Shown here one piece after another: positions 6,441 to 49,881 of a stretch of DNA of 64,000 bases (positions within the stretch are counted from its first letter, which is position 1; each line of letters begins with the position of its first letter). This DNA is from a virus, in IMG/VR virus record IMGVR_UViG_3300048809_000073, positions 1-64,000 of that record. The stretch is one strand, 5' to 3'. The notes under the pieces were generated by a model. It was not told the origin of the DNA. It was given only the letters and a program-made list of their open reading frames with translations, and did no database searches. The position numbers and the translations under genes were made by a program.

Positions 6441-7436
6441 ATGAATATAACCGCAGAACAAGTAGAATATCTTAGAAAACAGCATGTGCAATTTGGACTA
6501 CCTTGCTACGCAGGAATGGTTCATGAGTGTGTCATGACTTCTCTTATCAAATTTGTAATTTATGCTCAACGAATGGGAATGCCATTTTCCCTCGACACAA
6601 TGATCAATGAAAGTTTGATTCAACGAGCAAGAAACCATTTGGCAGCGAAGTTTTTAGAAAATGGTGTTGCAACCCATCTAATGTTTATTGATAGTGATAT
6701 CGGTTTTGAACCAGAACATATTTTCAAATTGTTGTTGCATGACAAGGATATTGTTGGTGGTTTATATCCCAAAAAGGCTCTCCCTCCTGATTATGTAGTC
6801 AATGTCAGTCCAGATGCAGTTAGTGAAGAGGGTCAAATAAAAAATCTGGACACTTTAATTCCTGTAAGCCGTTTGGGAACTGGGTTTATGCTTATCAAAC
6901 GCAATGTTTTTGAAAAGCATATGGCCGCATATCCAAATACCAAATTTACAAATAACATTGGACTTGATCCAAAGTTCAATCCATTTTGCTACACTTTCTT
7001 TGATTGTTGGATTAGTCAAGACGCAAATCGTGAATATTTGTCAGAAGATTGGGGATTTATTGTCAAGAGTCGAGTAATTGGTATTCAAGCATATGCAGAC
7101 CCAACAGTTCGTCTCAATCATAGTGGAACTTTTGTATTTCCTGGCGATCCTACCGCATTGTATACCAGCATGGGATTGAAGTTGGAAGATGTTCCTCACC
7201 TTACTCCAAGAATTGCTATGAGGAAGGACGAGATAGCAGATGAATCTGCCAAACTCTGCGTACAACCCGATATGGAAGCATTAAACAAATATATTGAAAA
7301 GAAAAAGCAAGAAGCTGAATTATTGGCTATGACAACAGGGAATATTTCAATTTCTTCAACAGATGTTTCAATACCTAATGTTTCAATACCACAAACTTCC
7401 AGAGTAGTTTTGTCAAAGAAGAAAAATAAAGGATAA
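6441..7436 (+). CDS. Glycosyltransferase, GT-A-like
   Basis: 331 residues. FIDSDIGFEPEHI carries the DxD-type motif of GT-A glycosyltransferases, and DIVGGLYPKK, VSRLGTGFMLIKR and EDWGFIVKSR fit the phage glycosyltransferase-2-like family. The substrate is unknown; phage enzymes of this kind modify DNA bases, virion proteins or host glycans. The C-terminal ~50 residues are low-complexity (DVSIPNVSIPQ). ATG 6441 was chosen from the promoter and ribosome site. The 3' end overlaps a convergent homing-nuclease gene by 24 bases. Confidence 0.7.
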   Translation: MNITAEQVEYLRKQHVQFGLPCYAGMVHECVMTSLIKFVIYAQRMGMPFSLDTMINESLIQRARNHLAAKFLENGVATHLMFIDSDIGFEPEHIFKLLLHDKDIVGGLYPKKALPPDYVVNVSPDAVSEEGQIKNLDTLIPVSRLGTGFMLIKRNVFEKHMAAYPNTKFTNNIGLDPKFNPFCYTFFDCWISQDANREYLSEDWGFIVKSRVIGIQAYADPTVRLNHSGTFVFPGDPTALYTSMGLKLEDVPHLTPRIAMRKDEIADESAKLCVQPDMEALNKYIEKKKQEAELLAMTTGNISISSTDVSIPNVSIPQTSRVVLSKKKNKG

Positions 7437-8354
7437 AATTTTCTTTTCCATCGTTTTTGATTCATTGTAATTTAACTCTAACAAGGGAATTCTGTGCGAC
7501 ATACAGTATTCCATTTTAATTTTGTCTCGCTCTTGAATAGTTTTAAGACCATCATTTCCATTCCAAATGAAAACTGGTTTGAAATGTTGTTTTCCTTGAA
7601 ATTCGATTAACCCATTGAGTTTTTGATTATTGTTGTACACACCAAAATCAAATGGAAGTGCTCTTTTAAATTTACAATCATTGAATCTGATTTGCTTTGA
7701 AAATGGCACACCTAATTTTATAAGTATGTTTTCAATTTTAGTTTCTCCTCGGCTGTTGTTACACGAGGGACAGCCTCTACCACGCAAATGATTATCTGGA
7801 GTAACAGAAAAATCTCTGTGTATTGGACAAGTAACCAGTAATTTTTCTCGTACTCCATTAAAGATAGAATTTTCATAAGTGTAAAAATTATTATGATACA
7901 ATCTTGCTTTCTCTTTAAAATTCTTAGATTTGGCGGTTCGATGGCGATTTATAATCATTTTGGCACATTTATGACATCCTTTGTCACGTAAATGATTATC
8001 TGGTGTAATTGAAAAATCTCCATGTATTGGACAGGTAACAAGTAATTTGATCCTTGCGGTTTGATACTTAGCATTTTCATAACTATAAAATTTGCTATGA
8101 ATGATATTTGCTCTATTGATAAAGTCTGATAGCAAACCGGTTTGCTTTTGAATTGTTTTGATTCTGCCACATTCGTAACAACCATTACCATTTAAATGCT
8201 GGTTTGGTCGCTGTTGAAATTCTCCATGTATAGGGCAAATAATTCTGACTTTGGTGAAATTGTTGCTGTATTCCACCAAGGTATAATCGTAAAAATGGTG
8301 ATGTTTAATTTTGGCTTTATTAATAAAAATTTGAGTTGTTGATTGTTGGCTCAT
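7413..8354 (-). CDS. CPxHG-repeat zinc protein with PD-(D/E)xK-like nuclease domain
   Basis: 313 residues, probably a free-standing homing endonuclease. Three ~65-residue units each carry CPIHG(E/D)F, a conserved NxHL and a final GCxxC, a repeated zinc-ribbon-like DNA-binding array. Residues ~195-310 resemble Vsr/PD-(D/E)xK nucleases (LPFDFGVY, LIEFQGKQHF, then DKIKMEYC). Relatives in this window are at 26196-26942 and 42891-43610. A GGAGAC ribosome site precedes the ATG. It is an inserted, convergent gene between accessory genes. Confidence 0.7.
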   Translation of the reverse strand: MSQQSTTQIFINKAKIKHHHFYDYTLVEYSNNFTKVRIICPIHGEFQQRPNQHLNGNGCYECGRIKTIQKQTGLLSDFINRANIIHSKFYSYENAKYQTARIKLLVTCPIHGDFSITPDNHLRDKGCHKCAKMIINRHRTAKSKNFKEKARLYHNNFYTYENSIFNGVREKLLVTCPIHRDFSVTPDNHLRGRGCPSCNNSRGETKIENILIKLGVPFSKQIRFNDCKFKRALPFDFGVYNNNQKLNGLIEFQGKQHFKPVFIWNGNDGLKTIQERDKIKMEYCMSHRIPLLELNYNESKTMEKKILSFIFLL

Positions 8355-8437: not shown

Positions 8438-8977
8438 ATGAATATGAGAATAGAAGAAATCGAACATCACCCCGCTAAAATATATTTGGATTTAGATGGT
8501 GTTGTTGTATGGCTTGATAAAGCTATCGCTGAATACAATAATGTATCCTTGGCAGAATATGATTTGTTGGGATTCAACAATAAGTATTGGACAAATGTGT
8601 TAAATACAGCTAATCTTAAGGACTTTTTTGCTAATGCGGAATGGGAAAGTAATGGCAAGAGTATGTTGGGATGGATATTATCTCAGTATATTCCAGTTAC
8701 TTTTTTGAGCCGACCTGTACGAGAACCGGGTACAAAAGATTGTATTGCTGGAAAAAATATTTGGTTACATCGGCATGGAGTATCTGTTATTCCAGTAATT
8801 TATGAATTTGATAAAGAAAAATACGCCACTACAAAAGGCAGACCAAATATTTTGATTGATGATCATCCTGACAATATTAATAAATGGAACGCGGCTGGCG
8901 GAATTGGAATACTCTACAAAAATGCTTGGTTTCCAGAGGTTATTTCCAAACTTAACAAGATATATGGAATCACATGA
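8438..8977 (+). CDS. HAD-superfamily phosphatase (5'-nucleotidase-like)
   Basis: 179 residues. YLDLDGVVVW places the catalytic D18xD20 motif, and ILIDDHPDNINKW supplies the later acidic motif of HAD hydrolases. It resembles phage and bacterial 5'(3')-deoxyribonucleotidase-like proteins. Ribosome site AAAGGA. The stop overlaps the next start (ATGA), so the following ART-like gene is probably translationally coupled. Confidence 0.72.
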   Translation: MNMRIEEIEHHPAKIYLDLDGVVVWLDKAIAEYNNVSLAEYDLLGFNNKYWTNVLNTANLKDFFANAEWESNGKSMLGWILSQYIPVTFLSRPVREPGTKDCIAGKNIWLHRHGVSVIPVIYEFDKEKYATTKGRPNILIDDHPDNINKWNAAGGIGILYKNAWFPEVISKLNKIYGIT

Positions 8978-9549
8978 AGATAAACGAAGTAATTGAAGAT
9001 GTGTCGCAAACCATGACCCTTTGGCATGGTGGAAGAAATCTTCAATTCAATCAGATGAATATGATTCCCGCTAAGAAAGGCCGATGGGAATACGGCCCAG
9101 GTTTATATCTCACTACTCATTATGAAACTGCCAGAAAGTACGCCAAAGGCGGCGGAACAACTTTTAAACTCACAATTGAAAAGGGAACAGATATTTCTAA
9201 AGTCACTATTGAGTTACAAGAAGCAATTGATTTTGTTAAACGATATGTAATTGGTCAGTATCGCAAGCCAATGATTGAAGATTTGACGAACAATATCAAC
9301 AGACTTGGAAAGCTATTTCTTGAAGTGTTGGTTAACCTTTGTGTAAATTATCAATGTTTGTCACCAAAAAATACGGTTGAATTGAGAAAGTTTATTGTAA
9401 ATCACGGTGCCGATTATGAAATATCTCGTGGTTTTGCTGGAAGGGCTGAAACCATCGTTGTGATTTTTAACCCTGCAATAATCAAAAAAATTGAAGCTGT
9501 CAAGGCTTCCGATGTGTCGTTAGATCAAAGGGAACAACATATAGAGTAG
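8974..9549 (+). CDS. ADP-ribosyltransferase-fold protein with capsid-targeting-like leader
   Basis: 191 residues. After MKINEVIED, a leader like those of T4 internal proteins (possible cleavage after V-I-E8), comes TLWHGG (H18) and YGPGLYLTTHYETARKYA. This His...Tyr arrangement recalls NAD-binding ADP-ribosyltransferases of the H-Y-E group; the third catalytic residue is not assigned. T4 packages ADP-ribosyltransferases (Alt), so an injected ART would have precedent. Function is an inference from two motifs and the context. Confidence 0.5.
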   Translation: MKINEVIEDVSQTMTLWHGGRNLQFNQMNMIPAKKGRWEYGPGLYLTTHYETARKYAKGGGTTFKLTIEKGTDISKVTIELQEAIDFVKRYVIGQYRKPMIEDLTNNINRLGKLFLEVLVNLCVNYQCLSPKNTVELRKFIVNHGADYEISRGFAGRAETIVVIFNPAIIKKIEAVKASDVSLDQREQHIE

Positions 9550-9553
9550 TTTG

Positions 9554-9561
9554 AATAAATA
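9554..9561 (+). promoter_or_regulatory. Late-type promoter motif AATAAATA
   Basis: A TAAATA core nine bases before ATG 9570 of the polyprotein gene; no clear Shine-Dalgarno sequence is seen. Same class as the motifs before the head genes. Confidence 0.45.
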
Positions 9562-9569
9562 CTCATACT

Positions 9570-12500
9570 ATGCTATTAAATGACTTGTATAATCATGCTT
9601 GGAGAAGTACAACACTATTTGAAGGCGGTAATATTTGGCCAGAAAGTAGTCATTTTGATCAAGTCATTGCTTCTCAATTGGTAGCTGAAACTGATAGGTA
9701 TCTTCATGATATTGGTTTACAAGCTTACGTAATTGGTAGTGCAGCCACACCCACCAGCGGAAAAATGAGCGGAGATTTAGATGTTTTAGTTGATCTAACT
9801 CACTTGGAAAATACTTTCAAAATTTCTGATTCAAAAATAATTCGTCAAAAATTTGAGCAATATCTTCAACAAAAGGGATTAAAGACCAGAAAAACTGGAA
9901 TTACAGTTCATATTTTGCTTCCATTTAAAGGTAAATTTTATCAAGTTGATATTAAGCCTGTAAAAAATGCAGAACGCATCAGATTGTTTCATACACATAT
10001 CCTTCCTAAAAATAGTCCGTTTAAAGGTTTACATAAGCAATTACTTATTAATGCATTGGCAACAAGCCAAGGTTTCGTTTGGAGTTCTGATGAAGGTCTT
10101 TTTATGCGAGATTCCGATGGAAAGAAATCAAGTTTCATTACCGACGACTTAAACGAAATTGCTCACTATTTAATCGGTTCAAACGCTAAAGCATCTGATC
10201 TTGGTAGTGTTGAAAGTATTATTGCTGCTATACCCGATCCAGCACAAAAACGAGCGATGGTTGATTTGGCTTACAGTTATGAACGATGGGATGCTGTTCG
10301 TCCGATTACAGAGGCGGCTGCCCCCCAGGTGGGTCGCAAATATCAACATATTGAAGATTTAGTTTTTACCAATGGTAGCATTGGTGGACTTCATGCTGTT
10401 GAACGATTGAAGGAGATGAGTAGTGAAGGAAAGGGTATAGAATTAAAAATGGATGGAAGCCCAGTTTTATATTGGGGCCGTGATGATACTGGCAAGTTTC
10501 ATATGTTACCTAAGAATGCGGTGGAATATCTCAAAAGAGGAGTTCAAACTACTAAGGGTGGAGTTCAAACTTTGCTGGGTAGTTCAAAAGATGTAGAAAA
10601 ATTTATTGCTACTACTGGAAATGTTGAACAAGGTCAAGAATTACTTCGTCAAAAATACGCTCAAAATTTATCTAAATTATGGAGCTATTTTGAAAAGATA
10701 AGTCCAAAGAAAGGATTTATTGAAGGTGGATTGTTATTTTGGCCCGGTGATCCTGCAACATTAAATCCTAAAACGAATGAGTGGGATTTTAAGCCAAATG
10801 TTACAGAATTTCATGTTCCTGCTGACTCTGAACTTGGTCAACGGATTTCAAAAGCAAAAGTAATGATCGCCGCTACTGGCTATTACAAATATATTGGAGC
10901 AGATGAAGAAAGATATCCAAATGTTTCAAAATTATCATCAGATGATGTTCTCGTCGTGGGAACAACATATGTAGAATCAATTCCTAAAATTGATATAAAG
11001 GGATTGGATAAAGTTGCAGCTTTTATCAGTAAGAACGCTAAAATCATTGATTCTTTTGTTGCTGGTCAGCCGGGGTTGTCTCGTCCCGGCGATATATTAT
11101 ACAAATTTTTCAATCAAAATTTTCGTGTAGAACAAGTTACTAAACAATTTATAGCTTGGGCTGCTAAAAATCTTAGTGCTGAAAAAACTAAAAAAATGTT
11201 GGATCATCCAGGATTGAAAGCAATTTTTGCTGCTATGGAAATGCTTACGGCAGAAAAATATAAGTTGCTTAGTGTTTTGGCACAAGGAACTCATGGCGGT
11301 ATTCGTCAAACAAATCCAGAGGGATATGTTCAAGCTCATTCTGATAAAAAATTTAAGTATGATCTTCCCGGTCAATTCATTAAAGCTATTGATCAAAAAA
11401 ATTGGAATCCAAAAATGAAGGCTGATCGTCTTCAAGAGGATTTGCAACGAACTGGTAATAGCAAAATTGCTGTGCTTGGATGGGGAAGAGGTATGGGACA
11501 TAAAGGACATATGTTTCTTGCCAGCAGTGTTCTTACTCAAGCGAAGAAAATGGGAGGCGATCCGTACTTCGTAGTAAGTCGTACCATGGGGAAGGATGAT
11601 CCAATTACTCCCAGAGAAAAACTTGCCATCTATCGTAAGGTTTTTCCGTCCCAAAAGAAAATATTTTTTGCAGCAACAGACGAAATGCCAGATTTAACTC
11701 GCGTTCTTCGTAAATTACAAGAAATGGGATATACCCAATTAACGGTAGTAGTTGGTGAAGATCAAGTTAACGCATTGAGTTACGTAAAAAAATATAACGG
11801 AGTATCAAATAACAAAGGGGAAATTCCCTTTTCATTTGACAAGATTGATGTCATTAGCCGCCAAGAAACTGGTGACCCAAGTAGTACCGAGGCAGGACCA
11901 CGAGCTACACCAATGAGAGATATTCTTCGTGATCCACAAGCAACCGTCCAGCAAAAAATTCAAATATGGCGATCAGCGATGAATTCTTCTATTAGCGATA
12001 AGGATGTTATGATTCTTATGAAGAAGGCTGCTAAAAGACTTGGGGTTCCGATTCAAGAGGCAAATGATATATATAATTTTTCTGAACTTGTAGAAGTTAA
12101 AGAAAATTTGAACCAAATTTTTGAAGGACACTCAATAACGGAAGATGGATATAGAGCCAACGCTGGAATGTTTCGTAAGGCTATTCTTTCTCAAGCAGAA
12201 AGAGATGACATTCTTCATGAATTGTTATCACATTTCAAAATTAGTAAAGTTCCACCAATAGGGATACATTCAGTAAAAATGAAAAAGTATTGTTTGGGTG
12301 TTACTTATTGGGCAATTAATCATACCTTGTATGTAGGAATCAATCCAGATGCGGCAAGAGATGCGTTTATTTATAAATCTGTTTTGGCTCATGAATTGTG
12401 CCATGTTGAAGATTTTTTAAATAATATATTCCCGCGTTGGCTTGACAATGAGAAACCAGATATAGAAGATGAGGAGTCTGAACCGAATTGGTCTAAAAAT

Positions 12501-14264
12501 GATGATGACGATGATGGATCAGGTACAGAAGAAGTAGATATAGACGGTCACGGCCCAAAGTGGCTACAAATTGCTAATCGTATTAATGGGATTTATGGAA
12601 ACAACTTTATTACAATATATACTGGCGATAGATTCAAATATTCTCTAGTAGGAAATATAAAAACAGGAAAATTATATATTCCAAAAGAACCAGTGACGGA
12701 AGCCGTTGATAATCAAATCAACGATGATGGTTGGATACTACCCAGTGGAAAGTTTATACCACTCAATTTTAGATTATCTAATCATCTTATGATACTTCGT
12801 GATCATGGTATGGATTCTTATAAAGAAGCATATAAGGAGGGATGGATTCATTTATATATCCTGAATAGAACTACTGTTGAGTTAGATACTACAACAGTTG
12901 GAACAGAAAATAGTAAAAAATTAATGAATGTAGTTCGTACACGCTTGGCACAAAAGTATCCAAGCATTATATTGTCAATATGGGGAGAGTCAGGTTTCAA
13001 AAAGAAGACACTTGAATGGAATGGTAGATATTTTGATACTTATAGACGAAGGGATGAGTCCATAAATGAAGGCATCTCCGTACAACAAGTTGGTCAGGAT
13101 GGTTGGTTATTGCCAACAGGAAAGTTTATTCCAAATGCGCCAGGGGAAGGACATTGGAATACTTTGAAAAAGGCTGGTATTAAAACTTATACATCTGCTT
13201 GGCGCAAAGGATGGCTTCATGTTTCTTGTCAAGGGAGAGGAGAATGTGTTATTCAAACTATTTTACCATATGAACGGGTTTGCAAAAGATCAGAAAAGAT
13301 AGCCACAGATATTCAGTCTTCGTTTCCAAATATTTTTCTTTTATGTGGTGAAAGTTTTGGAAATGATGAATATGAATGGACTGGTAAAGAATTTGTTCGG
13401 AACGCAAAACGACGTAATATGTATGAATCCTACGGTTCACCCGCTACGAAAGCAAGACACAGTTTTTTCGTTCATACGGCATCATCCCTAATTAGCCGTG
13501 ATGACGTAGCAAAGCATCTGGCGTCTCTGTGGCATCACTCAGTCACACCTGAGCAAGTTAATCATCTTCTCCAAGCTGATTGGTACGAGCTTAAGAAGGT
13601 ACCTCTTGATTTGATTCGGGCTGAAGAGGGTTGTTTCAGTGAAGAGCAAGCCAAAGAGTATGGGAGTCGATTAACACCACTTCCTCCGGTTATTCTTCAG
13701 CCTCGCGATTATTGGGATGATGATAGCCCAATTGTAGATGGGCATCATCGCGCCTATGCTGCCTATCTACGTGGTGACAAAGATATCATGGCTTACGTTC
13801 CGGTTGAAGATTCTTTGATTCCGCCGCGTGGTGGAAGATTCGCCGCAAATCATATATTTGAATCCTACGATACACCCGCTACGAAAGCAAGTGGCGTAGC
13901 CTTTATAAAAAGAAATGGTAGTAAAACATCCCCGATTGATGATGATGGTTGGTTATTGCCAAATGGAACTTTTGTTCCAAATGGAATAACAAGAGGTCAT
14001 GTAACGACAGCCCTTAAAATGGGATTCAAATATGGATATGATGCGGCGTATGAAGCAGGTTTGATTCGTTTGTCAATATATATTCATCAATTTGAAACGT
14101 CACAACAAATGTCACCAAGATTGGAAAATCTTGTCATAAAAGCAATCAAAAGAATGCGCAGTTCCCAAGATGCAACTCTTATTAGCGGTTCAGGTTCTCC
14201 ATTTTATAAAAGATTTAATTGGGATGGTAAACAATTAGTTTCACAGAACCGAAGGGCGTGGTAA
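9570..14264 (+). CDS. Multidomain polyprotein: nucleotidyltransferase, ligase-like, HxGH, SprT-like, ParB-like and DGW repeats
   Basis: 1564 residues. Order: leader 1-18 ending L-F-E; Pol-beta-type nucleotidyltransferase (G56-S57, D69xD71, possible third Asp D127); a ligase-like unit with K293-M-D-G296 and I-E385-G; a cytidylyltransferase-like unit with H644xGH647; a SprT-like zincin (H941-E-L-C-H945, then H994-G-P-K-W); two DGW repeats (~1050-1160, ~1170-1280); a ParB-like unit (D1390-G-H-H-R-A-Y); a third DGW repeat (~1440-1564). Prohead-protease-type sites follow E248, E830, E858, E1044, E1167, E1286 and E1431, mostly at domain borders. No host or phage enzyme with this order is known to me. 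I infer a packaged precursor cut by gp21. Individual substrates are unknown. Confidence 0.72.
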   Translation: MLLNDLYNHAWRSTTLFEGGNIWPESSHFDQVIASQLVAETDRYLHDIGLQAYVIGSAATPTSGKMSGDLDVLVDLTHLENTFKISDSKIIRQKFEQYLQQKGLKTRKTGITVHILLPFKGKFYQVDIKPVKNAERIRLFHTHILPKNSPFKGLHKQLLINALATSQGFVWSSDEGLFMRDSDGKKSSFITDDLNEIAHYLIGSNAKASDLGSVESIIAAIPDPAQKRAMVDLAYSYERWDAVRPITEAAAPQVGRKYQHIEDLVFTNGSIGGLHAVERLKEMSSEGKGIELKMDGSPVLYWGRDDTGKFHMLPKNAVEYLKRGVQTTKGGVQTLLGSSKDVEKFIATTGNVEQGQELLRQKYAQNLSKLWSYFEKISPKKGFIEGGLLFWPGDPATLNPKTNEWDFKPNVTEFHVPADSELGQRISKAKVMIAATGYYKYIGADEERYPNVSKLSSDDVLVVGTTYVESIPKIDIKGLDKVAAFISKNAKIIDSFVAGQPGLSRPGDILYKFFNQNFRVEQVTKQFIAWAAKNLSAEKTKKMLDHPGLKAIFAAMEMLTAEKYKLLSVLAQGTHGGIRQTNPEGYVQAHSDKKFKYDLPGQFIKAIDQKNWNPKMKADRLQEDLQRTGNSKIAVLGWGRGMGHKGHMFLASSVLTQAKKMGGDPYFVVSRTMGKDDPITPREKLAIYRKVFPSQKKIFFAATDEMPDLTRVLRKLQEMGYTQLTVVVGEDQVNALSYVKKYNGVSNNKGEIPFSFDKIDVISRQETGDPSSTEAGPRATPMRDILRDPQATVQQKIQIWRSAMNSSISDKDVMILMKKAAKRLGVPIQEANDIYNFSELVEVKENLNQIFEGHSITEDGYRANAGMFRKAILSQAERDDILHELLSHFKISKVPPIGIHSVKMKKYCLGVTYWAINHTLYVGINPDAARDAFIYKSVLAHELCHVEDFLNNIFPRWLDNEKPDIEDEESEPNWSKNDDDDDGSGTEEVDIDGHGPKWLQIANRINGIYGNNFITIYTGDRFKYSLVGNIKTGKLYIPKEPVTEAVDNQINDDGWILPSGKFIPLNFRLSNHLMILRDHGMDSYKEAYKEGWIHLYILNRTTVELDTTTVGTENSKKLMNVVRTRLAQKYPSIILSIWGESGFKKKTLEWNGRYFDTYRRRDESINEGISVQQVGQDGWLLPTGKFIPNAPGEGHWNTLKKAGIKTYTSAWRKGWLHVSCQGRGECVIQTILPYERVCKRSEKIATDIQSSFPNIFLLCGESFGNDEYEWTGKEFVRNAKRRNMYESYGSPATKARHSFFVHTASSLISRDDVAKHLASLWHHSVTPEQVNHLLQADWYELKKVPLDLIRAEEGCFSEEQAKEYGSRLTPLPPVILQPRDYWDDDSPIVDGHHRAYAAYLRGDKDIMAYVPVEDSLIPPRGGRFAANHIFESYDTPATKASGVAFIKRNGSKTSPIDDDGWLLPNGTFVPNGITRGHVTTALKMGFKYGYDAAYEAGLIRLSIYIHQFETSQQMSPRLENLVIKAIKRMRSSQDATLISGSGSPFYKRFNWDGKQLVSQNRRAW

Positions 14265-14265
14265 A

Positions 14266-15147
14266 ATGCTGATTGAAGATTTCATTCCCGAAGTTTATCG
14301 GCAGAAACCTCCTACTCCTCTTGAGTATAAGAAGAAGTATGGAAGTAAAACTGTGCCGATTACTGATCAAGGATGGTTATTTCCAGATGGAACATTTATT
14401 TCAAATGGAGGAAGAAGTCATGTAGCGATGGCCGACAAAATGGGATATGGTCGTGGGTATGATGAAGCCTTTACTGCTGGATTACTTCGTGTAGCATTTA
14501 TGGGATTTGGTAGAGGCGGCGACGGCGAAGCTTATTTAGAAACCGACAAACGTATGTCTCCAGAATTGGAAAAGATTGTTTTGAAGGCCATAAAAAGGTT
14601 TCCTAAAGGTTATGGATTAGAATTTGTGAGTGGCTCTGGAACTGGCTTTCAAAAAAGATTTGATTGGGATGGAAGACAGTTAGTTCCACAAAGACGACAA
14701 CGTAACGTTTATGAAGATTTCAATTCACCCGCAAAGAAAGCAGTTGACAAATGGGCCATTGAAAAATGGCGATCTTCCGAGTTTATAAAAAGGGTTGGTA
14801 GTAAAACTGCGCCGATCAATGGTCATGGTTGGTTATTTCCAAGTGGTAGATTTGTTCCAAATGGATATGAAAGAACACATTTAGGAACTGCTAAGATGAT
14901 GGGTTTCTTTCATGATTATGAGGATGCGTATAAAGCAGGGTTGCTTCGTGTAGTTGTTCATGAGGGGTTTTCTTATTTTGAAACTATACAAAAAATGTCT
15001 CCAAAACTGGAAAGTTTTACTATTAGGGAGATGAAGAGAATATCAGACTTAGTAGATTTTGAATTGAAGACTGGTTCTGGAACCGAATACTATCAAGCAT
15101 TTCAATGGGATGGAAAACAACTAAAACTAAGAAGGGGTATGTGGTAA
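14266..15147 (+). CDS. Two-copy DGW-repeat protein with capsid-targeting-like leader
   Basis: 293 residues. The leader MLIEDFIPE ends in the gp21-type site I7-P-E9. Two copies of the DGW unit follow (GWLFPDGTF, GWLFPSGRF; each with HxxxxxxMG, SPxLE, a Gly/Ser-rich SGSG or TGSG and F-x-W-DG-x-QL). V148-Y-E150 separates them. The unit is about 110-120 residues and is the same as in the preceding polyprotein. ATG lies two bases after the upstream stop. Function unknown; possibly an adaptor or DNA-binding module. Confidence 0.6.
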   Translation: MLIEDFIPEVYRQKPPTPLEYKKKYGSKTVPITDQGWLFPDGTFISNGGRSHVAMADKMGYGRGYDEAFTAGLLRVAFMGFGRGGDGEAYLETDKRMSPELEKIVLKAIKRFPKGYGLEFVSGSGTGFQKRFDWDGRQLVPQRRQRNVYEDFNSPAKKAVDKWAIEKWRSSEFIKRVGSKTAPINGHGWLFPSGRFVPNGYERTHLGTAKMMGFFHDYEDAYKAGLLRVVVHEGFSYFETIQKMSPKLESFTIREMKRISDLVDFELKTGSGTEYYQAFQWDGKQLKLRRGMW

Positions 15148-15148
15148 A

Positions 15149-16909
15149 ATGTTTGTTGATGATTTGATTTCTGAATCCGTTATTGAACGACCATTGAAGG
15201 CTGCGCTGATGGCCTTGAAGCCTTATGTGGTTCAAAAAGTTCAATGGGAATATGATAATTGGGGAGGTTCTTATGGATTATGTAATGATGTTGCGAAAGT
15301 CATGGCAAACTGTATTAAATATGATATTTTCGGCGTAAAAACATCTATTATTGATAAGGATAACGATCATTATTGGGTTAGAGCGTGGATGGGTAAAGAA
15401 TGTTACGATATTGATATTCCGTTTGGAAAATATGAACGATGGAGTGAAAAGCGTGAACAATTTTTCAAAGTTTCAAATGTAATTTTTACTCCGCGAGATA
15501 TTTTTATCTATAAGTCATCCAAAATGTTTTTGAAGGCTCCGTGGGAAGCGAGAAAACGATATAATCCAATGAATGTCAAGAAATTTTTTATGAGAGAGTC
15601 TCCAGATTTTGGCTACTCTCAATTCAACAACAGAGATAAGGACATAAAGAAAATCAAATTCGTTGTGGAAAGAGAACCACCAAATGCTCCTGGATTTGAG
15701 ATTAACATTCAAAATGATCCATGGACAAAAATTCGTTGTTTTTCATTTGGAAATAATGATGTTATAGAAGTTACACGAATTCAAATAACTCGCGAATGGC
15801 AAGGAACTGGCGTTGGTCAAATATTGTATGATAAAGCAATTCAACTCTCAAAGAAAATGGGTTATCATTATTTTGAGTCTGGATTTTTCAGAACAAGTGA
15901 TGCCGAAAGTGCATGGGATAGATTGAGACAACGATATTCAGTTGAAAAAGTTCCAAATAAGAAAGGCCCAGCAAACGCATTGAAAACAGTTTATCGAATT
16001 GACCTGACAAAAATTCCATTGAAGGAGTCTCCAGATTTTGGGTATTCACGATTCAATGATCGTGATAAAGAATTGTCATCAGTAAAGTTTAATATAAGAA
16101 GTGGCCCCAAGAATGTAGATCATCAATCATTTATAATAGAAGCAATAAATGAAAATAATGAAATTGGAAAAATGGTTCTTAGTTTTATATTCTCATCATC
16201 AAGTATGAATGTTTTGAGAAGCGAAATTGTAAAGGAATGGAAAGGAACTGGTCTTGGACAAATGTTATATGACAAGGCTATTGATTTGGCAAAGTCAAAA
16301 GGTTGTAGAGAATTTCGTTCGGATACTACACGAAGTTATGACGCTGATCAGGCATGGGAAAAGTTGAGAAAGAGATATCCAGTCCGATATAGAGATTCAC
16401 ATACATACATTCCTCATTCATATTTTTATATTGTCTTGAGCAGAATAAAAGTGGCTGAGTCTCCAGATTTCGGTTATCGTCATTACAATGATCGTGATGC
16501 CGAGATTTCAAAGTTGACGTGGAAAGTAAAAAGTGACGAAAATGGTATAGAAATTAGAGCAATTGATAAAAATAATATTTCTGGTTTTAGTGAAGGGGTA
16601 ATAATAGCTCGCCCAATGAAATCTGATAGTTGTGGAGACATTTCGTGTATAGAACTCAATGGCATTCAAATAACTACAAGTAAATTAACAGAAAGAGGTA
16701 ACTGGCATAATACTGGTCTTGGTCAAATGCTATACGATAGAATGATTCATGAAGCCAAAAAAGCTGGATATTCTTATATTGTTAGTGATTTTACAAGATC
16801 ACTGTATGCTAAATCGGCGTGGGAAAAATTGGCTAAAAGATATTCAGTGAAAAAATTGAAAGATTCTGACGGTGATAGTTATTTCAGAATTGATTTACAA
16901 GGAAAATAA
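15149..16909 (+). CDS. Polyprotein: Cys/His/Asp domain plus three GNAT acetyltransferase domains
   Basis: 586 residues. Leader MFVDDLISE (I7-S-E9), then residues 10-150 with GLCNDV, DHYWVRAW and CYDIDIP, a Cys-His-Asp order like transglutaminase or papain-like folds. Three GNAT domains follow, with acetyl-CoA loops GTGVGQ (219-224), GTGLGQ (366-371) and NTGLGQ (521-526), each beginning ESPDFGY. Sites M-R-E150, L-K-E293 and V-A-E437 precede SPDFGY exactly at the domain borders. Likely cut into four proteins. GNAT enzymes acetylate proteins, tRNA or small molecules; targets are unknown. The upstream junction repeats the TGGTAAAATG junction of the gene before it. Confidence 0.7.
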   Translation: MFVDDLISESVIERPLKAALMALKPYVVQKVQWEYDNWGGSYGLCNDVAKVMANCIKYDIFGVKTSIIDKDNDHYWVRAWMGKECYDIDIPFGKYERWSEKREQFFKVSNVIFTPRDIFIYKSSKMFLKAPWEARKRYNPMNVKKFFMRESPDFGYSQFNNRDKDIKKIKFVVEREPPNAPGFEINIQNDPWTKIRCFSFGNNDVIEVTRIQITREWQGTGVGQILYDKAIQLSKKMGYHYFESGFFRTSDAESAWDRLRQRYSVEKVPNKKGPANALKTVYRIDLTKIPLKESPDFGYSRFNDRDKELSSVKFNIRSGPKNVDHQSFIIEAINENNEIGKMVLSFIFSSSSMNVLRSEIVKEWKGTGLGQMLYDKAIDLAKSKGCREFRSDTTRSYDADQAWEKLRKRYPVRYRDSHTYIPHSYFYIVLSRIKVAESPDFGYRHYNDRDAEISKLTWKVKSDENGIEIRAIDKNNISGFSEGVIIARPMKSDSCGDISCIELNGIQITTSKLTERGNWHNTGLGQMLYDRMIHEAKKAGYSYIVSDFTRSLYAKSAWEKLAKRYSVKKLKDSDGDSYFRIDLQGK

Positions 16910-16932
16910 TCTTGGAAATCTCAAAAGATTGG

Positions 16933-16938
16933 TAAATA
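16933..16938 (+). promoter_or_regulatory. Late-type promoter core TAAATA
   Basis: TAAATA fourteen bases before ATG 16952, with GAAGGTGA between as ribosome site. Confidence 0.4.
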
Positions 16939-16951
16939 CTGAAGGTGAACT

Positions 16952-17152
16952 ATGAGAATTTCTGAAATCATTCAAGAAACATCATCTGGAGGGTCAACTT
17001 CGGCCGGAAATATGGGAACCACGATTGCTGGCGGAACCCCACCAAAAGGTCAATTTTTTGGCGGTGATCCAGCCTCTTCAATATATAGCACAATCAAAAA
17101 GAATAGAAAAGATCGTAAAACCGTTAGTCCTACGTTGATCAAAAGAACATAA
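16952..17152 (+). CDS. Small Gly/Ser-rich protein with capsid-targeting-like leader
   Basis: 66 residues: MRISEIIQE (I7-Q-E9) then a Gly/Ser/Thr-rich stretch and a basic end (KKNRKDRKTVSP, IKRT). The leader, small size and basic tail resemble T4 internal proteins. Its STSAGNMGT recalls STSAGNIAT next to the processing site of the capsid protein encoded at 48697, which may be coincidence. Confidence 0.5.
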   Translation: MRISEIIQETSSGGSTSAGNMGTTIAGGTPPKGQFFGGDPASSIYSTIKKNRKDRKTVSPTLIKRT

Positions 17153-17164
17153 AGAGGAATTGAA

Positions 17165-18556
17165 ATGCTGTTACAAGAATTTTGGCAATCTAACTCGTCT
17201 GGTGATGATGAATGGATAGAGACTAATGAACCTGTCCATACACGAGGTTTATATGAACCTGCCAAGAACGAAGCGCTTGCTAAATGGCGTAATGCAGATA
17301 TTAGTAATCCAAGATTTACTGGAAAGTATGTATGGATTTATGATCCAACTGTAGGATTGCTCATTGGTGAAGGAAATTACGCGGCCCACAGCAGAGTTTT
17401 TGGTAACATAATGAATCAGTCTGATACTGATTATGATGATTTTGATAGAGGATATGCTCAAACCGATGTAGATAATCATGTATTGTATTTCTATCCAACA
17501 GATGTTCACGAATTTTTTGCACATCCAATGGAGAAGATATTCAAAAAAACATTTCCAAATTGGGAGATTGTCAAGTTTGATTCCTATAAAGGAGATAATT
17601 GGAAACCAATGGGGGCGGTAAAAGAGGCAATTATAGATGGAATTGATGAATACATTGATTTGGCTCGTATGTCTATAAGATTTGATCCGCCAGGTGGTAC
17701 TTTCGAAAAAAGTGATTCTCTTGAGCGTTTGGAACTATTGAAGAAGGAAATTGCGCAAAGATTGGCTGGTAGATATATTGTGGCAAAGATAACACGACTT
17801 GGTAACTCTCTTTTGGTAAAAGGAACATACGAAAAGTATGTGGTTACGCCGCCAGAAAATTTGCGACCAGGAATTAGAAGCAATAACTTTGTGGTGGTTC
17901 CTTGGACTGCAAAGAGGAGTCCAGCGAAGCGAGTAGTCGAGGGTGTAGAAGATACAACAAGGTTTGGAACATATCTATGGATTTATTATCCAACATATGG
18001 ATTGACAATTCGTAAAGGACATTATGCAATGCATACCACTCGATTTCATGACATTATAAATAAGAGACGAATGACAGGTGGATTTGCACCCCATTTTGAT
18101 AGTTATGATCGCGGGTATTTGAAACTTGATCCGAAGACCAAATCAATGTATGTTATGCCAACAGATGTACGAGAACATTTTACTTATGATGTGAAAGAAG
18201 CATTTGAAAAAGAATTTCCAAATTGGCATATTGAAACTTTTGATAAGCAACGATACGATTTCAAACCAGGTACGAAACTTCTTGATGCAGTAAAGGAAGG
18301 GATTCGTTTAGCGGCAAAAACAATCGGATATAATTATTTTAATCGTAAAAGTGAAGAAAGAGGAGCCGCATTATATGTCTTGGTTAGAAAAATAAATTAT
18401 ACGTTGGAGCGTAGATATATTGTTGCAGATGTGGAAACTAGAGATGATGTAGTTTATGCGGTGGGAAGTTTTGAGAGATATAAAATAGAATTACCACTTT
18501 CACTCAGACCAAGACTTACAGTTAAAGATTTCAAAATAAGCGTGGTGTCAAACTAA
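17165..18556 (+). CDS. Tandem-repeat protein with two ~220-residue copies
   Basis: 463 residues. Starts MLLQEFWQ, then two copies of a domain: each has YVWIYDP or YLWIYYP, a GxYA(A/M)H motif, FD(R/S)..DRGY, PTDV.E.F and FPNW.I..FD. The copies (about 50-255 and 262-463) are separated by V257-V-E259-G, a prohead-protease-type site. Ribosome site GAGGAA. The domain is not recognised. It belongs to the same accessory run as the leader-bearing genes. Confidence 0.6.
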   Translation: MLLQEFWQSNSSGDDEWIETNEPVHTRGLYEPAKNEALAKWRNADISNPRFTGKYVWIYDPTVGLLIGEGNYAAHSRVFGNIMNQSDTDYDDFDRGYAQTDVDNHVLYFYPTDVHEFFAHPMEKIFKKTFPNWEIVKFDSYKGDNWKPMGAVKEAIIDGIDEYIDLARMSIRFDPPGGTFEKSDSLERLELLKKEIAQRLAGRYIVAKITRLGNSLLVKGTYEKYVVTPPENLRPGIRSNNFVVVPWTAKRSPAKRVVEGVEDTTRFGTYLWIYYPTYGLTIRKGHYAMHTTRFHDIINKRRMTGGFAPHFDSYDRGYLKLDPKTKSMYVMPTDVREHFTYDVKEAFEKEFPNWHIETFDKQRYDFKPGTKLLDAVKEGIRLAAKTIGYNYFNRKSEERGAALYVLVRKINYTLERRYIVADVETRDDVVYAVGSFERYKIELPLSLRPRLTVKDFKISVVSN

Positions 18557-19350
18557 TGAAAAAGAAAAAGTCATCTAAACCTGGAACACTAAGAGCAACT
18601 GATAAAGTTGCATCTGTCGGCCCTGTGCTTGGTGGGAATCCAAAGAAAGGAACTCTGAGTAAGAAATTTTTTGGCTGTGGCATTACGCCAGAAATTGGCG
18701 ATAGAGAAGTTTTGGATGAAGCCACACGTAACCAATTTGCAAAACTTAAAAAAGTTAACATAGATCACCCTGCCGCTTTGATTACTCCCAAAAATCATGT
18801 TTATGTTGGTAGAATGCATTATGAGTTGCGTGATGTAGTTGCACGAATGCATGATGATCCTAGTCTTTTAAGTGGAACTGTTAGAGTTCGTTTTGCAGGA
18901 ACAGTTGGATATGCTCATACAGTAATTGAATTTGCTAATAAGGATGAAGCAACTTTACAAAGAGTTTTTGCCGCATTGGAAATTAGAACCCCCGGTGATT
19001 GGTTTACTGTGGAATATTCAGTTCCACCATTATATCCAAGTTGGAAGGGAAAAAAAGATGAAGTAAAAGAAGAAATACAAAATTGGGCAACAATGGCAGA
19101 ACCAGAACCCGTTCGTTCCTATAGTCCAGCTATGGCGTTTTGGCGTGAGTCAAAAAATGAAAAGACAAGAAAGGTGCTATCATATAAGGAATTTCAAAAT
19201 GCAAGTCACGCCACTAAAAAAGTGTGTCCATCTTGTCAGAATACTTTCAAAAATGTACATAGTGTAGATCAACAATTTTGTTCATTACCATGTGAAAAGG
19301 ATGGTGGACTAACTTCTGCATTACAAGAAGCATTTAGCAAATTTGTATAA
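18556..19350 (+). CDS. Hypothetical protein with C-terminal zinc finger
   Basis: 264 residues. The N-terminus is lysine-rich (MKKKKSSKP). EVLDEATRNQ near residue 55 contains an L-D-E-A site of the gp21 type. A beta-rich middle follows, then near 220-250 CPSCQNTF...QQFCSLPCEKDG, a four-cysteine zinc finger. The start overlaps the previous stop (TAATG). Not recognised further. Confidence 0.5.
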   Translation: MKKKKSSKPGTLRATDKVASVGPVLGGNPKKGTLSKKFFGCGITPEIGDREVLDEATRNQFAKLKKVNIDHPAALITPKNHVYVGRMHYELRDVVARMHDDPSLLSGTVRVRFAGTVGYAHTVIEFANKDEATLQRVFAALEIRTPGDWFTVEYSVPPLYPSWKGKKDEVKEEIQNWATMAEPEPVRSYSPAMAFWRESKNEKTRKVLSYKEFQNASHATKKVCPSCQNTFKNVHSVDQQFCSLPCEKDGGLTSALQEAFSKFV

Positions 19351-44653: not shown

Positions 44654-45298
44654 ATGAACAAACAGATGTTAATGGAATATCAAAATCCTTCGTCAATGTC
44701 CACGGAAATTTTAGAATCAGTTGACGCTTTGGGACAAAAAAAGAAAGATTTATACATGAAGGGAATATTTATTCAGGGAGATATTCGCAATCATAATCAG
44801 CGAGTTTATCCAGTTTCAGAAATTCAAAATGCTGTTACATCATTGAATACATTGATTGAAACTGATATACCTGTGTATGGACAATTAGATCATCCGGATG
44901 ATCTAAAAATTAGTTTGGATCGTGTAAGTCATATAATTACTGGAATGTGGATGGAAGGGGCCAATGGACTTGGTAAGTTGAAAGTTCTTTCTACTCCAAT
45001 GGGAAATATTATTCGTTCAATCATTGAAAGTGGCGCAAAACTTGGCGTTAGTAGTCGTGGTAGTGGTAATGTCAATGAAAGTACTGGTCAGGTAAGCGAG
45101 TTTGAAATTATTACAGTAGATGTAGTTGCCCAGCCAAGTGCGATGAATGCATGGCCAAAACCCGTATATGAATCGTTGCTTAATTCTCGCGGCGGATATA
45201 AAGCTTTTGAAATAGCAGAAGAAATTAATCATAATCCCCGCGTTCAAAAATATTTAACTGAACAGCTTACAAGGTTTATCAAGGAACTAAAGAGGTAA
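44654..45298 (+). CDS. 21: Prohead protease (T4 gp21-like)
   Basis: 214 residues, near T4 gp21 (212). GQLDHPD gives the catalytic His80, and GVSSRGSG the catalytic Ser (133 or 134); FEIITVDVVAQPSA completes the assemblin-like core. In T4 this enzyme cuts core, capsid and internal proteins after (L/I)-x-E. An I-L-E-S site at residue ~20 may be a self-cleavage site. It is the predicted processor of the leader-bearing and polyprotein genes in this window. A homing nuclease gene overlaps its stop. Confidence 0.88.
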   Translation: MNKQMLMEYQNPSSMSTEILESVDALGQKKKDLYMKGIFIQGDIRNHNQRVYPVSEIQNAVTSLNTLIETDIPVYGQLDHPDDLKISLDRVSHIITGMWMEGANGLGKLKVLSTPMGNIIRSIIESGAKLGVSSRGSGNVNESTGQVSEFEIITVDVVAQPSAMNAWPKPVYESLLNSRGGYKAFEIAEEINHNPRVQKYLTEQLTRFIKELKR

Positions 45299-45963
45299 TG
45301 GAAAAGAAAACACAAGCATTTGTATATAAATGGACAGAGCTTTCAACTGGAAAATGGTATATTGGTTCTCATGCAAGTAAAGGATGTCATCCTAATGATA
45401 GATATATTTGCTCCAGTAAGTTAGTTAAAACTTTGATACGAGAGAATCCCGCGAACTGGAATAGAACTATTTTATTAATGGTTGATCCAATAGATGCATT
45501 ACCATATGAAACCCAAGTACTGATTGGTTTGGATGCTAAGCACGATCCAATGTGTTATAATCTACATAACGGTAATGGTAAATGGTCATTTGTTGGAAAA
45601 GTGGGTAATAGAAAAGGAAAAGAACCTTGGAATAAAGGATTAACAAAAGAAACGAGTTTGATTGTGGCACGTTCAGCGAAGTTAGAAAGTATTGCTAAAA
45701 CGGGATGTATTAGTTTAAATAAAGGAAGAAAATTTGGCCCACAGTCGCCAGCGGTGGTAGAAAAACGGGCAGCGTTATTGCGAGGTAAAACTCGACCAAA
45801 AGAAGTATGTGAGAAAATTAGTGTAACTAAGAAGGCAAATAACCTGACAAAGCAAAAACAAACTTGGGAAGAAATATATGGTTTAGAACGCGCAATTAGT
45901 CGTAGAGAAAAATTAAAAAATAGAAAACGTGATGTAATTGGTGTATTCGTTAAGGAGCAGTAA
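45298..45963 (+). CDS. GIY-YIG homing endonuclease
   Basis: 221 residues. FVYKWTELSTGKWYIGSH is the GIY-YIG core, E in LPYETQVLIG follows, then NUMOD3-like repeats (EPWNKGLTKET, then RGKTRPKEVCEKIS) that bind DNA. The start overlaps the gene 21 stop and the end overlaps the next start (TAATG): a homing gene set into the head cluster. Confidence 0.8.
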   Translation: MEKKTQAFVYKWTELSTGKWYIGSHASKGCHPNDRYICSSKLVKTLIRENPANWNRTILLMVDPIDALPYETQVLIGLDAKHDPMCYNLHNGNGKWSFVGKVGNRKGKEPWNKGLTKETSLIVARSAKLESIAKTGCISLNKGRKFGPQSPAVVEKRAALLRGKTRPKEVCEKISVTKKANNLTKQKQTWEEIYGLERAISRREKLKNRKRDVIGVFVKEQ

Positions 45964-46382
45964 TGGAACTCCGAGAAGAACTTGAGAAGTACCGCGACAT
46001 TTTTAGTGAAGATAAAAAGCCTTTGTTGGAAGGTCAAGGTAAATGTCAAAAATGTGGTTCAGATAAAATCCTTACTTTCAGTGGCAAATGTAGTGATTTA
46101 TGCTACACATCATTCAAGGGTATAGAATTAGATGGCTATGTTCCTGCTGGAATCGGCATTGATCAGAATGATGGTTACGGAGATTATGTTCAGGGCGACC
46201 TTTGTTTAGCGTGCGGTCAAATGCAAGGTAGATTTCCAATCTCTGATAAGGCACTCGCCGCCGTGTTTGGAAAGAATGTAGTGTTCAAGTCTGTTGGAAA
46301 CGATGTCGCAAGAAAACCAGCCATAAAGGGATCGCTTCACAATATAGAATTAGGTGACGAACAGAAATATCCAAGGAGATAA
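45963..46382 (+). CDS. Zinc-ribbon protein with prohead-type propeptide
   Basis: 139 residues. Starts MELREELEKYRDIFSEDKK, then L-L-E-G, a gp21-type site at ~23. The mature part has CQKCG...CSDLC and CLACG zinc-binding cysteines. Its N-terminus is nearly the same as that of the next gene, so the propeptide is a shared module. Probable internal head protein; zinc role unknown. Confidence 0.58.
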   Translation: MELREELEKYRDIFSEDKKPLLEGQGKCQKCGSDKILTFSGKCSDLCYTSFKGIELDGYVPAGIGIDQNDGYGDYVQGDLCLACGQMQGRFPISDKALAAVFGKNVVFKSVGNDVARKPAIKGSLHNIELGDEQKYPRR

Positions 46383-46396
46383 TAAAGGAGATAATA

Positions 46397-46660
46397 ATGG
46401 AACTTAGAGAAGAATTAGAAAAATATCTCGCCATTTTTAAAGAAGCCGTAACTCCATTAGGATTCCCACCAAAAAAACCCGTAGCACAAAATGGCGCTTT
46501 TGAAACAGATGATAAATTTTATGATGCTTATCAAATGGACAAATATATCGCATATCTTGAAAAACAAATTTTTGATTTGAAACAGCAAAATTCTGATGCT
46601 GGTTGGCAAGCGGAATACAATAGACAAATGGATCCGGATCAATTCAGAAATAATTGGTAA
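46397..46660 (+). CDS. Small protein sharing the MELREELEKY propeptide
   Basis: 87 residues: MELREELEKYLAIFKEAVTP with a possible cut at F-K-E-A, then a soluble helical part (MDKYIAYLEKQIFDLKQQ). Ribosome-site repeat AAGGAGATAATA occurs twice just before the ATG. Propeptide paralog of 45963-46382. Confidence 0.55.
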   Translation: MELREELEKYLAIFKEAVTPLGFPPKKPVAQNGAFETDDKFYDAYQMDKYIAYLEKQIFDLKQQNSDAGWQAEYNRQMDPDQFRNNW

Positions 46661-48696: not shown

Positions 48697-49881
48697 ATGT
48701 CAACACCATTATTGGAAAATCGTTGGGCCGATACCAAGAACGCCCTGCTCGAAGGACTAACAGGAAATCGCAAAACGGTTATGAGTGTAGTCCTAGAGAA
48801 CACGCGCAAGCAATTGCGTGAAAGTGCTACCACAGGTTCTACATCTGCTGGTAACATTGCAACCCTTAACCGCGTTATTCTACCAGTCATTCGACGTGTA
48901 ATGCCAACCGTTATTGCTAACGAGTTGGTTGGTGTTCAGCCAATGACAGGTCCAGTAGGCCAGATTCAGACACTTCGTGTCCGTTATGGTCAGACTGACA
49001 ACGTTTCTGCTCCATATCCATGGAACACAAGCGTAAATGCCGGTGATGAAGCTTTGTCACCATTCAAGATTGCAACAGCTTATTCTGGTAGTGCAACTAC
49101 TGGTCAGGCAGATTGGACAGCAAACTTGGAAGGCGTAGCAGGTAACAAGATCAATGTTCAGATTCTTCGTCAGACAGTTGAAGCCAAGAGCCGTAAGCTT
49201 TCTGCCCGTTGGACATTTGAAGCCGCGCAAGACGCACAAGCAATGCACGGAATCGACATCGAAGCCGAAATCATGGCTGCTTTGGCACAGGAAATCACAG
49301 CAGAAATCGACCAGGAAATTCTTGGTTCGCTCTACTCGCTTTCCGGTACAGATCAGACATTTGATCAGTCTTTGGTTAGCGGTACCGCAACATATGTTGG
49401 TGACGAACACGCAGCTTTGGCAATCATGATCAATCGCGCAAGCAACTTGATCGCACAGCGCACTCGTCGTGGTGCAGGTAACTGGGCTGTTGTTAGTCCA
49501 ATTGCTCTTACCGTTTTGCAGAGCGCAACAACTTCTGCATTTGCTCGTACAACTGAAGGTACCTTTGAAGCACCAACAAACACCAAGTTTGTCGGAACTT
49601 TGAATGGCTCATTGAAGGTTTACGTCAATGGTTATGCAAACGATGCAGTTCCAGTGTTGGTTGGTTATAAGGGTTCTTCGGAATCTGATGCAGCCGCCTT
49701 CTACTGCCCATACATTCCTTTGATGAGTTCTGGTGTCGTACTTGACCCAGTTACCTTCGAACCAGTAACGAGTTTCTTGACCCGTTATGGATATGTAGAA
49801 CTTACAAACTCCAGTTCCTCACTTGGTAATGCTGGCGATTATCTCAGCTCGATTGCCGTCGCGAACTTGAGCTTCAGCTAA
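48697..49881 (+). CDS. 23: Major capsid protein (T4 gp23-like)
   Basis: 394 residues from ATG 48697 (AAAGGAG ribosome site). N-terminal leader with L-L-E and L40-R-E42-S43; cleavage at LRE-S would give a mature start SATTGSTSAGN. The body has VIRRVMPTVIANELVGVQPMTGP and the HK97-fold features of gp23. Shorter than T4 gp23 (521), as in many relatives lacking an insertion domain. A strong terminator follows. Confidence 0.92.
   Translation: MSTPLLENRWADTKNALLEGLTGNRKTVMSVVLENTRKQLRESATTGSTSAGNIATLNRVILPVIRRVMPTVIANELVGVQPMTGPVGQIQTLRVRYGQTDNVSAPYPWNTSVNAGDEALSPFKIATAYSGSATTGQADWTANLEGVAGNKINVQILRQTVEAKSRKLSARWTFEAAQDAQAMHGIDIEAEIMAALAQEITAEIDQEILGSLYSLSGTDQTFDQSLVSGTATYVGDEHAALAIMINRASNLIAQRTRRGAGNWAVVSPIALTVLQSATTSAFARTTEGTFEAPTNTKFVGTLNGSLKVYVNGYANDAVPVLVGYKGSSESDAAAFYCPYIPLMSSGVVLDPVTFEPVTSFLTRYGYVELTNSSSSLGNAGDYLSSIAVANLSFS

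Follow-up and report, generated by a model that had tools for sequence, protein, structure and literature searches.

Leader-bearing, multi-domain proteins of a T4-like jumbo phage as candidate capsid-targeted effector polyproteins with putative head-protease sites between their domains

The window, as the whole stretch of DNA analysed here is called, comprises 64,000 nucleotides of a 68 kb record of a T4-like jumbo phage, and its capsid gene resembles genes annotated as major capsid proteins in Sinorhizobium phage Phosso, Xanthomonas phage XbC2 and Escherichia phage 121Q (nucleotide matches). The locus of interest is a row of plus-strand genes, five of which carry the short N-terminal leaders reported in a first-pass annotation of the sequence. 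The first encodes a 191-residue ADP-ribosyltransferase-like protein (8974..9549; weak DUF3990/ART-PolyVal similarity) that starts with the leader MKINEVIE/D (8974-8997; here and below a slash marks a predicted cut), the leaders of its orthologs being MKITELLE/D and MKIREVIE/S. This is followed by a 1564-residue putative polyprotein (9570..14264) with a leader ending in L-F-E18 (9570-9623), by a 293-residue protein with two DGW domains (14266..15147; leader MLIEDFIPE/V, 14266-14292) and by a 586-residue protein in which an unknown N-terminal domain is joined to three GNAT domains (15149..16909; leader MFVDDLISE/S, 15149-15175). The fifth leader, MRISEIIQE/TSSGGSTSAGN (16952-16978), belongs to a 66-residue protein (16952..17152) and has a cut position common to its orthologs. 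A 463-residue protein of two repeats (17165..18556) has no clear leader; VVE259/G (17939-17941) lies between its repeats, and a homologous single-repeat gene in L005 bears the leader MKIKDIIRE/S. The adjoining 264-residue protein (18556..19350; LDE55/A at 18718-18720) is a possible further member of the set on a weak, by-eye comparison with orthologs in L005 and G015. At the other side of the row a 5'-nucleotidase-like gene (8438-8977) has the leader-like start MNMRIEEIE; its G015 ortholog begins MRLYEIKE/D and the relative in Pelagibacter phage HTVC008M has LVQE/Q ahead of the domain. Judged from these starts, the gene may belong to the putatively packaged set.

Several unrelated predicted effector domains (DUF6267, cytidylyltransferase, SprT-like, DGW and GNAT) are found within the chains of the window. 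In the 1564-residue protein the order is NTase-like, DUF6267, cytidylyltransferase, SprT-like, DGW, DGW, ParB-like and DGW, the NTase-like and ParB-like labels having been assigned by eye. The NTase-like domain matches a leader-bearing gene of G002, but only weakly, so that the leader end at E18 is a putative one. E248 (ITE/AAAPQV..YQHIED; 10311..10313) stands at the border to the DUF6267 domain (residues 259-615; 10344..11414; Pfam PF19782, E 1.5e-15), which aligns with a stand-alone gene of HTVC008M through that gene's C-terminus. The leaders of stand-alone DUF6267 genes in HTVC008M and Melnitz end in LVE/D and ITE/D near E248, the extrapolated cut lying about 5 residues off. Similarly, a stand-alone cytidylyltransferase of Melnitz starts with MKKFSEIIE/ARGD, and its extrapolated cut falls about 4 residues from E623 (RLQE/D; 11436..11438) at the border between the DUF6267 and cytidylyltransferase domains. 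The upstream border of the SprT-like zincin domain (residues 877-1033, with HELCH; 12198..12668; recognised by a Pfam match of E 0.0016, below the cut-off, and by alignment with L011) is marked by E852 and E858 (IFE/GHSITE/DG; 12123..12143), and a stand-alone SprT-like gene in L005 has the leader MKIKELLQE/S. Further along are E1044 (VTE/A; 12699..12701) and E1167 (INE/G; 13068..13070), at the borders to the first and second DGW domains, E1286 (MYE/S; 13425..13427), at the border to the ParB-like domain, and E1431 (IFE/S; 13860..13862), at the border to the third DGW domain and 2 residues from the point to which the leader cut of the 293-residue protein extrapolates. The first-pass annotation had placed E248, E1044, E1167, E1286 and E1431 at domain borders, as we also find; E623 and the E852/E858 pair had escaped it. 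In the 293-residue protein E150 (VYE/D; 14713..14715), likewise listed there, separates the two DGW domains, and in the 586-residue protein E150 (MRE/SPDFGY; 15596..15598), E293 (LKE/SPDFGY; 16025..16027) and E437 (VAE/SPDFGY; 16457..16459) each precede the same SPDFGY, as had been noted.

When two GNAT domains were modelled with AlphaFold2 from six sequences (mean pLDDT 68), the xE/SPDFGY stretches were found to fall in the low-confidence segments 1-27, 153-167 and 296-307, the domain bodies lying mostly at 70-87. E150 of the 586-residue protein is placed in a low-confidence, flexible stretch, E293 in segment 153-167 and E437 in segment 296-307. The repeated DGW domain (DGWLLPxGxF; 12717-13049, 13089-13418, 13935-14261, 14329-14706 and 14785-15144) was modelled confidently, with a pLDDT of 91.6 and a pTM of 0.85. 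Searches of this model against the PDB and BFVD gave no fold match below E 0.1, and the predicted structure is possibly a new fold.

The tripeptide common to these sites, (I/L/V/M/F)-x-E or hxE, is a frequent one, with 22 copies in the 1564-residue protein and 13 in the 586-residue protein, and the supposition that a reader merely picked suitable copies had to be met. The first-pass annotation chose five of the 21 internal copies in the 1564-residue protein, and tests free of selection were therefore needed. Domain edges were set from homologs (the HTVC008M DUF6267 protein, the cytidylyltransferase of the Methylophilales phage Melnitz, the L011 SprT-like domain, and DGW domains against each other), giving seven linkers, three of them with a single homology-set edge. 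Twelve of the 21 internal hxE copies lie within 143 linker residues and nine within 1403 domain residues (OR 14, p 3.6e-8), and no linker of the seven lacks a copy. Counted alone, the four linkers that have both edges set by homology took in nine of the 21 (p 8.5e-7). In the same protein neither glutamate outside hxE (OR 0.3) nor any of the control motifs hxD, hxK, hxQ, hxN, hxS, hxT, hxG, hxA, hxR and hxP was enriched in linkers. These unselected tests, with those on related phages below, reject coincidence, which is refuted at the sequence level and to which we attach next to no credence. The tripeptide alone is nonetheless insufficient, since eight of the 13 copies in the 586-residue protein lie away from the leader and borders; as several also lie inside domains, specificity must depend on exposure, and an exposed linker seems to be required in addition to hxE. 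In G002 a genome-wide scan showed leaders to be no more than mildly enriched (10, where about 3 were expected), and leaders of this kind are therefore clustered rather than general.

Further evidence came from related uncultured phages. For every protein with a leader, the position at which the leader ends was projected by alignment onto the internal domains homologous to that protein. In the group to which the window belongs the projected end coincided exactly with an internal hxE in 16 of 25 junctions (0.46 expected) and lay within five residues of one in 20 of 25 (4.7 expected). Neither count was reached by any of 2002 random placements; as related sequences do not give independent junctions, such permutation values set an upper limit to the strength of the result and are not exact probabilities. 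The GNAT family accounts for 13 of the 16 exact matches, and with it left out 3 of 12 junctions remain exact (p 0.001) and 7 of 12 within five residues (p 0.003). Among the non-GNAT matches the leader MRFEEFIVE/NKLNGLT corresponds to an internal KLSKISE/GMLNGLT, the leader cut of the 293-residue protein falls exactly on HLKE/G in L011, and MKISELLKE/TASCGSTSAG, from the G001 ortholog of the 66-residue protein, falls exactly on an internal DLEE/SASCGSTSSG in G015. For the GNAT domains themselves, an alignment starting at SPDFGY found 21 loci, and in the window's group every full-length domain start is preceded by hxE (13 internal and one stand-alone); the stand-alone gene, in L006, has the leader MLLRELFE/SPDFGY, its SPDFGY being the one found behind the internal sites. 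Conservation of the tripeptides between the domains of homologs, which had been named beforehand as the point on which the first reading would stand or fall, was thus found, the border sites being kept. Some searches gave little: single proteins of the locus returned a near-identical contig as their sole match in IMG/VR, the GNAT alignment found no relative among genome contigs, the 191- and 463-residue proteins found no match in cultured phages, and the DGW domains were too divergent for their alignment to serve as a query.

It was also found that in the Kyanoviridae the DUF6267, cytidylyltransferase and 5'-nucleotidase-like proteins are each encoded by a gene of their own and that several of these genes have such leaders; the chain of the window therefore looks like a fusion of leader genes that has retained their cut sites. 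Those sites might then be no more than relics of genes fused head to tail, the chain being packaged and working uncut in the manner of a classical polyvalent protein. Some fusions do hold whole leaders with their own methionine (LMKINEVTINE/AWF and KMRFSEIKE/SRK), and the virion RNA polymerase of N4, which is a polyvalent protein, is reported to be packaged without processing (PMC5512222). Most internal copies, however, keep the cut tripeptide only and have lost the acidic residue at P4/P5 (present in 1 of 13 internal copies against 18 of 23 leaders, from a leader list chosen partly by that feature). Together with the motif switching described below, this makes persistence as relics unlikely.

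A protease that would be expected to cut at these sites is encoded in the same genome. The gene at 44654..45298 on the plus strand specifies a gp21-type prohead protease (Peptidase S77; phrog_207), and the homology claimed by the first-pass annotation is borne out by matches to PF03420 (E 4.6e-25; 88.7 bits, the curated cut-off being 27) and to PDB 5jbl (E 7e-14), with the serine and histidine kept in the alignment. The S77 gene is also present in G001 (80% identical) and G002 (74% identical); none was seen in G003, G006 and G015, all of which are fragments. The major capsid protein (48697..49881, plus strand) contains LRE42/S at 48820-48822, within KQLRE/SATTGSTSAGN, at the position of the T4 gp23 maturation cut. 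The predicted mature starts of the 66-residue protein (TSSGGSTSAGN) and of the capsid protein (SATTGSTSAGN, 48823 onward) are alike.

In a second group of jumbo phages the same kinds of junction carry another motif. Here alanine precedes the GNAT domain in 10 of 10 junctions, mostly as K-x-A, and in gp273 of Tunturi_5 as RVA ahead of SPDFDY; none of 18 projected junctions has hxE within five residues (3.5 expected), whereas K(T/V/A/S/K)A lies exactly at 7 of the 18 (0.09 expected) and within five residues of 12 (0.92 expected). KTA itself is 9-12-fold above expectation in L061, L064, L068 and L073 and 4-5-fold above it in L070 and L071, and also precedes other domains, for example a YHGT-type ADP-ribosyltransferase-like domain. 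By eye, a Nudix domain shows the same switch (VKE/DYIDDQGFW in L011 against KVA/REGLDENGFW in Tunturi_5). The S77 and S78 Pfam models gave no match in this group, the S77 model being silent in all control genomes as well, and a head module of another kind is common to Tunturi_5 and G013, with a phrog_18299 protease, a scaffold-like protein that contains K(T/V)A sites and a major capsid protein of 70% identity; the phrog_18299 protease would be the enzyme that reads K-x-A. The search of related phages for leaders and sites suggested in the first-pass annotation thus found the pattern in the window's group, and another motif where a gp21-type protease was undetected. In a tree of GNAT domains the two junction types are interleaved, monophyly of the E-type being rejected (AU p 0.0245) and an ITE-type domain of G002 being sister to a KTA-type domain of L068, although many forks are weakly supported and branches are long, so that the number of motif switches is uncertain. 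This interleaving indicates that the cut site follows the phage and not the domain, a switching at the same junctions that relics of fusion do not explain. The uncultured jumbo phages L068, L070, L071/L072 and L073 also have single open frames of 2490-3390 residues in which numerous enzyme-like domains are joined at K(T/V)A junctions.

The same comparison bears on the suggestion that the chains are cut after injection by a host enzyme or by the embedded SprT-like metallopeptidase, a role that Iyer et al. propose for MPTase domains in their study of polyvalent proteins (PMC5512222). The 1564-residue protein does possess such a domain with HELCH, the only one among the chains of the window, yet the 586-, 293- and 463-residue proteins have sites although no peptidase domain was recognised in them. 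Both phage groups have SprT-like domains while their motifs differ, and the E-type motif is identical with that of gp21 and with the site found in the window's own capsid protein. Cutting by an embedded or host enzyme is accordingly rated as very improbable.

We therefore favour cutting by the head-maturation protease, and give a probability of about 0.8 to the reading that the locus encodes capsid-targeted effector polyproteins processed between their domains in this way. Short leaders of the T4 type would load the effector precursors into the prohead, where during maturation gp21 would remove the leaders after hxE and would also cut at hxE in the flexible linkers between domains, so that few precursors give rise to many proteins. 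The products would include an ADP-ribosyltransferase-like protein, nucleotidyl- and cytidylyltransferases, SprT-like and ParB-like proteins, several GNAT acetyltransferases and DGW domains, and would leave the head together with the DNA; a single leader on fused genes would then be one targeting signal for several enzymes. In the second group the same scheme would operate with a protease that reads K-x-A. The first-pass annotation had proposed such a packaged precursor, and this is supported at the level of sequence by the conserved sites, gp21 and the LRE/S of the capsid protein; from the leaders, the sites, their positions and conservation and the motif switch we infer packaging, cutting, injection and effector function. 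A weak point is that M, F and V at P3 extend the T4 motif, which is L/I-x-E.

It has been shown that T4 internal proteins lose their leaders to gp21 with L/I-x-E specificity (PMC9026906) and that they act as anti-restriction effectors (PMC12373910). The proteins described here resemble T4 IPI-III and Alt in the leader of about 7-10 residues, the genomic gp21 homolog, the (L/I)-x-E motif and (here putative) injected effectors that include an ADP-ribosyltransferase (PMC9026906; PMC12373910), but the single units of T4 lose terminal propeptides whereas the sites of the window separate up to eight domains per chain. Chains of 293-1564 residues with several domains would work like T4 internal proteins rather than being such proteins. 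Polyvalent proteins are large multi-domain phage proteins, predicted to be injected, that were likened to polyproteins by those who described them, and they similarly combine ART, GNAT, metallopeptidase, ParB-like and other domains; their release, however, is ascribed to embedded metallopeptidases, and capsid-protease sites between domains are unmentioned in the passages found (PMC5512222). The ejection proteins of phiKZ and SPN3US are likewise packaged in the head and cut behind a short motif whose last residue is Glu, although in SPN3US 13 of 14 mapped sites serve to remove an N-terminal propeptide and the remaining one a C-terminal propeptide, enzyme domains not being separated (PMC10052503). 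The Dar proteins of phage P1 are capsid-targeted anti-restriction proteins and the N-terminus of DarA is removed by a head protease (PMC9024508; PMC12810830); P1 has this one N-terminal removal and no series of inter-domain sites. In the open literature, most subscription papers being outside its scope, we found no description of effector domains set apart by sites for a head protease. Neither virion proteomics nor a cleavage assay was found for any of these phages, and the paper on Tunturi_5 contains no proteomics of virions. To that extent the lack of precedent claimed in the first-pass annotation stands, whereas multi-enzyme injected chains as such are already known (PMC5512222).

A broader proposal, which we hold to be reasonably probable, is that capsid-maturation proteases are general processors of injected effector polyproteins in at least two jumbo-phage groups with different codes, effector domains moving between the groups and adopting the local code, so that the site would be a readable punctuation marking injected effectors. 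If true, this would tie the maturation of the head to the production of effectors for host takeover, show how few targeting signals can suffice to load many enzymes, and provide an alternative to embedded metallopeptidases for the release of polyvalent proteins. The cut code could serve to recognise injected effectors in uncultured phages and to mark out their limits; the idea is testable now in Tunturi_5, a phage of the second group that is in culture with its host Tunturiibacter psychrotolerans.

Close to the protease gene of the window, two adjoining short genes (45963-46660) both start with MELREELEKY and contain IFSE/D and IFKE/A; they are perhaps gp67/gp68-like core proteins with gp21 sites. 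Probable homing-endonuclease-type genes lie between the protease and scaffold-type genes (45298-45963) and near the effector locus (7413-8354, minus strand), and similar-looking genes are common in G002.
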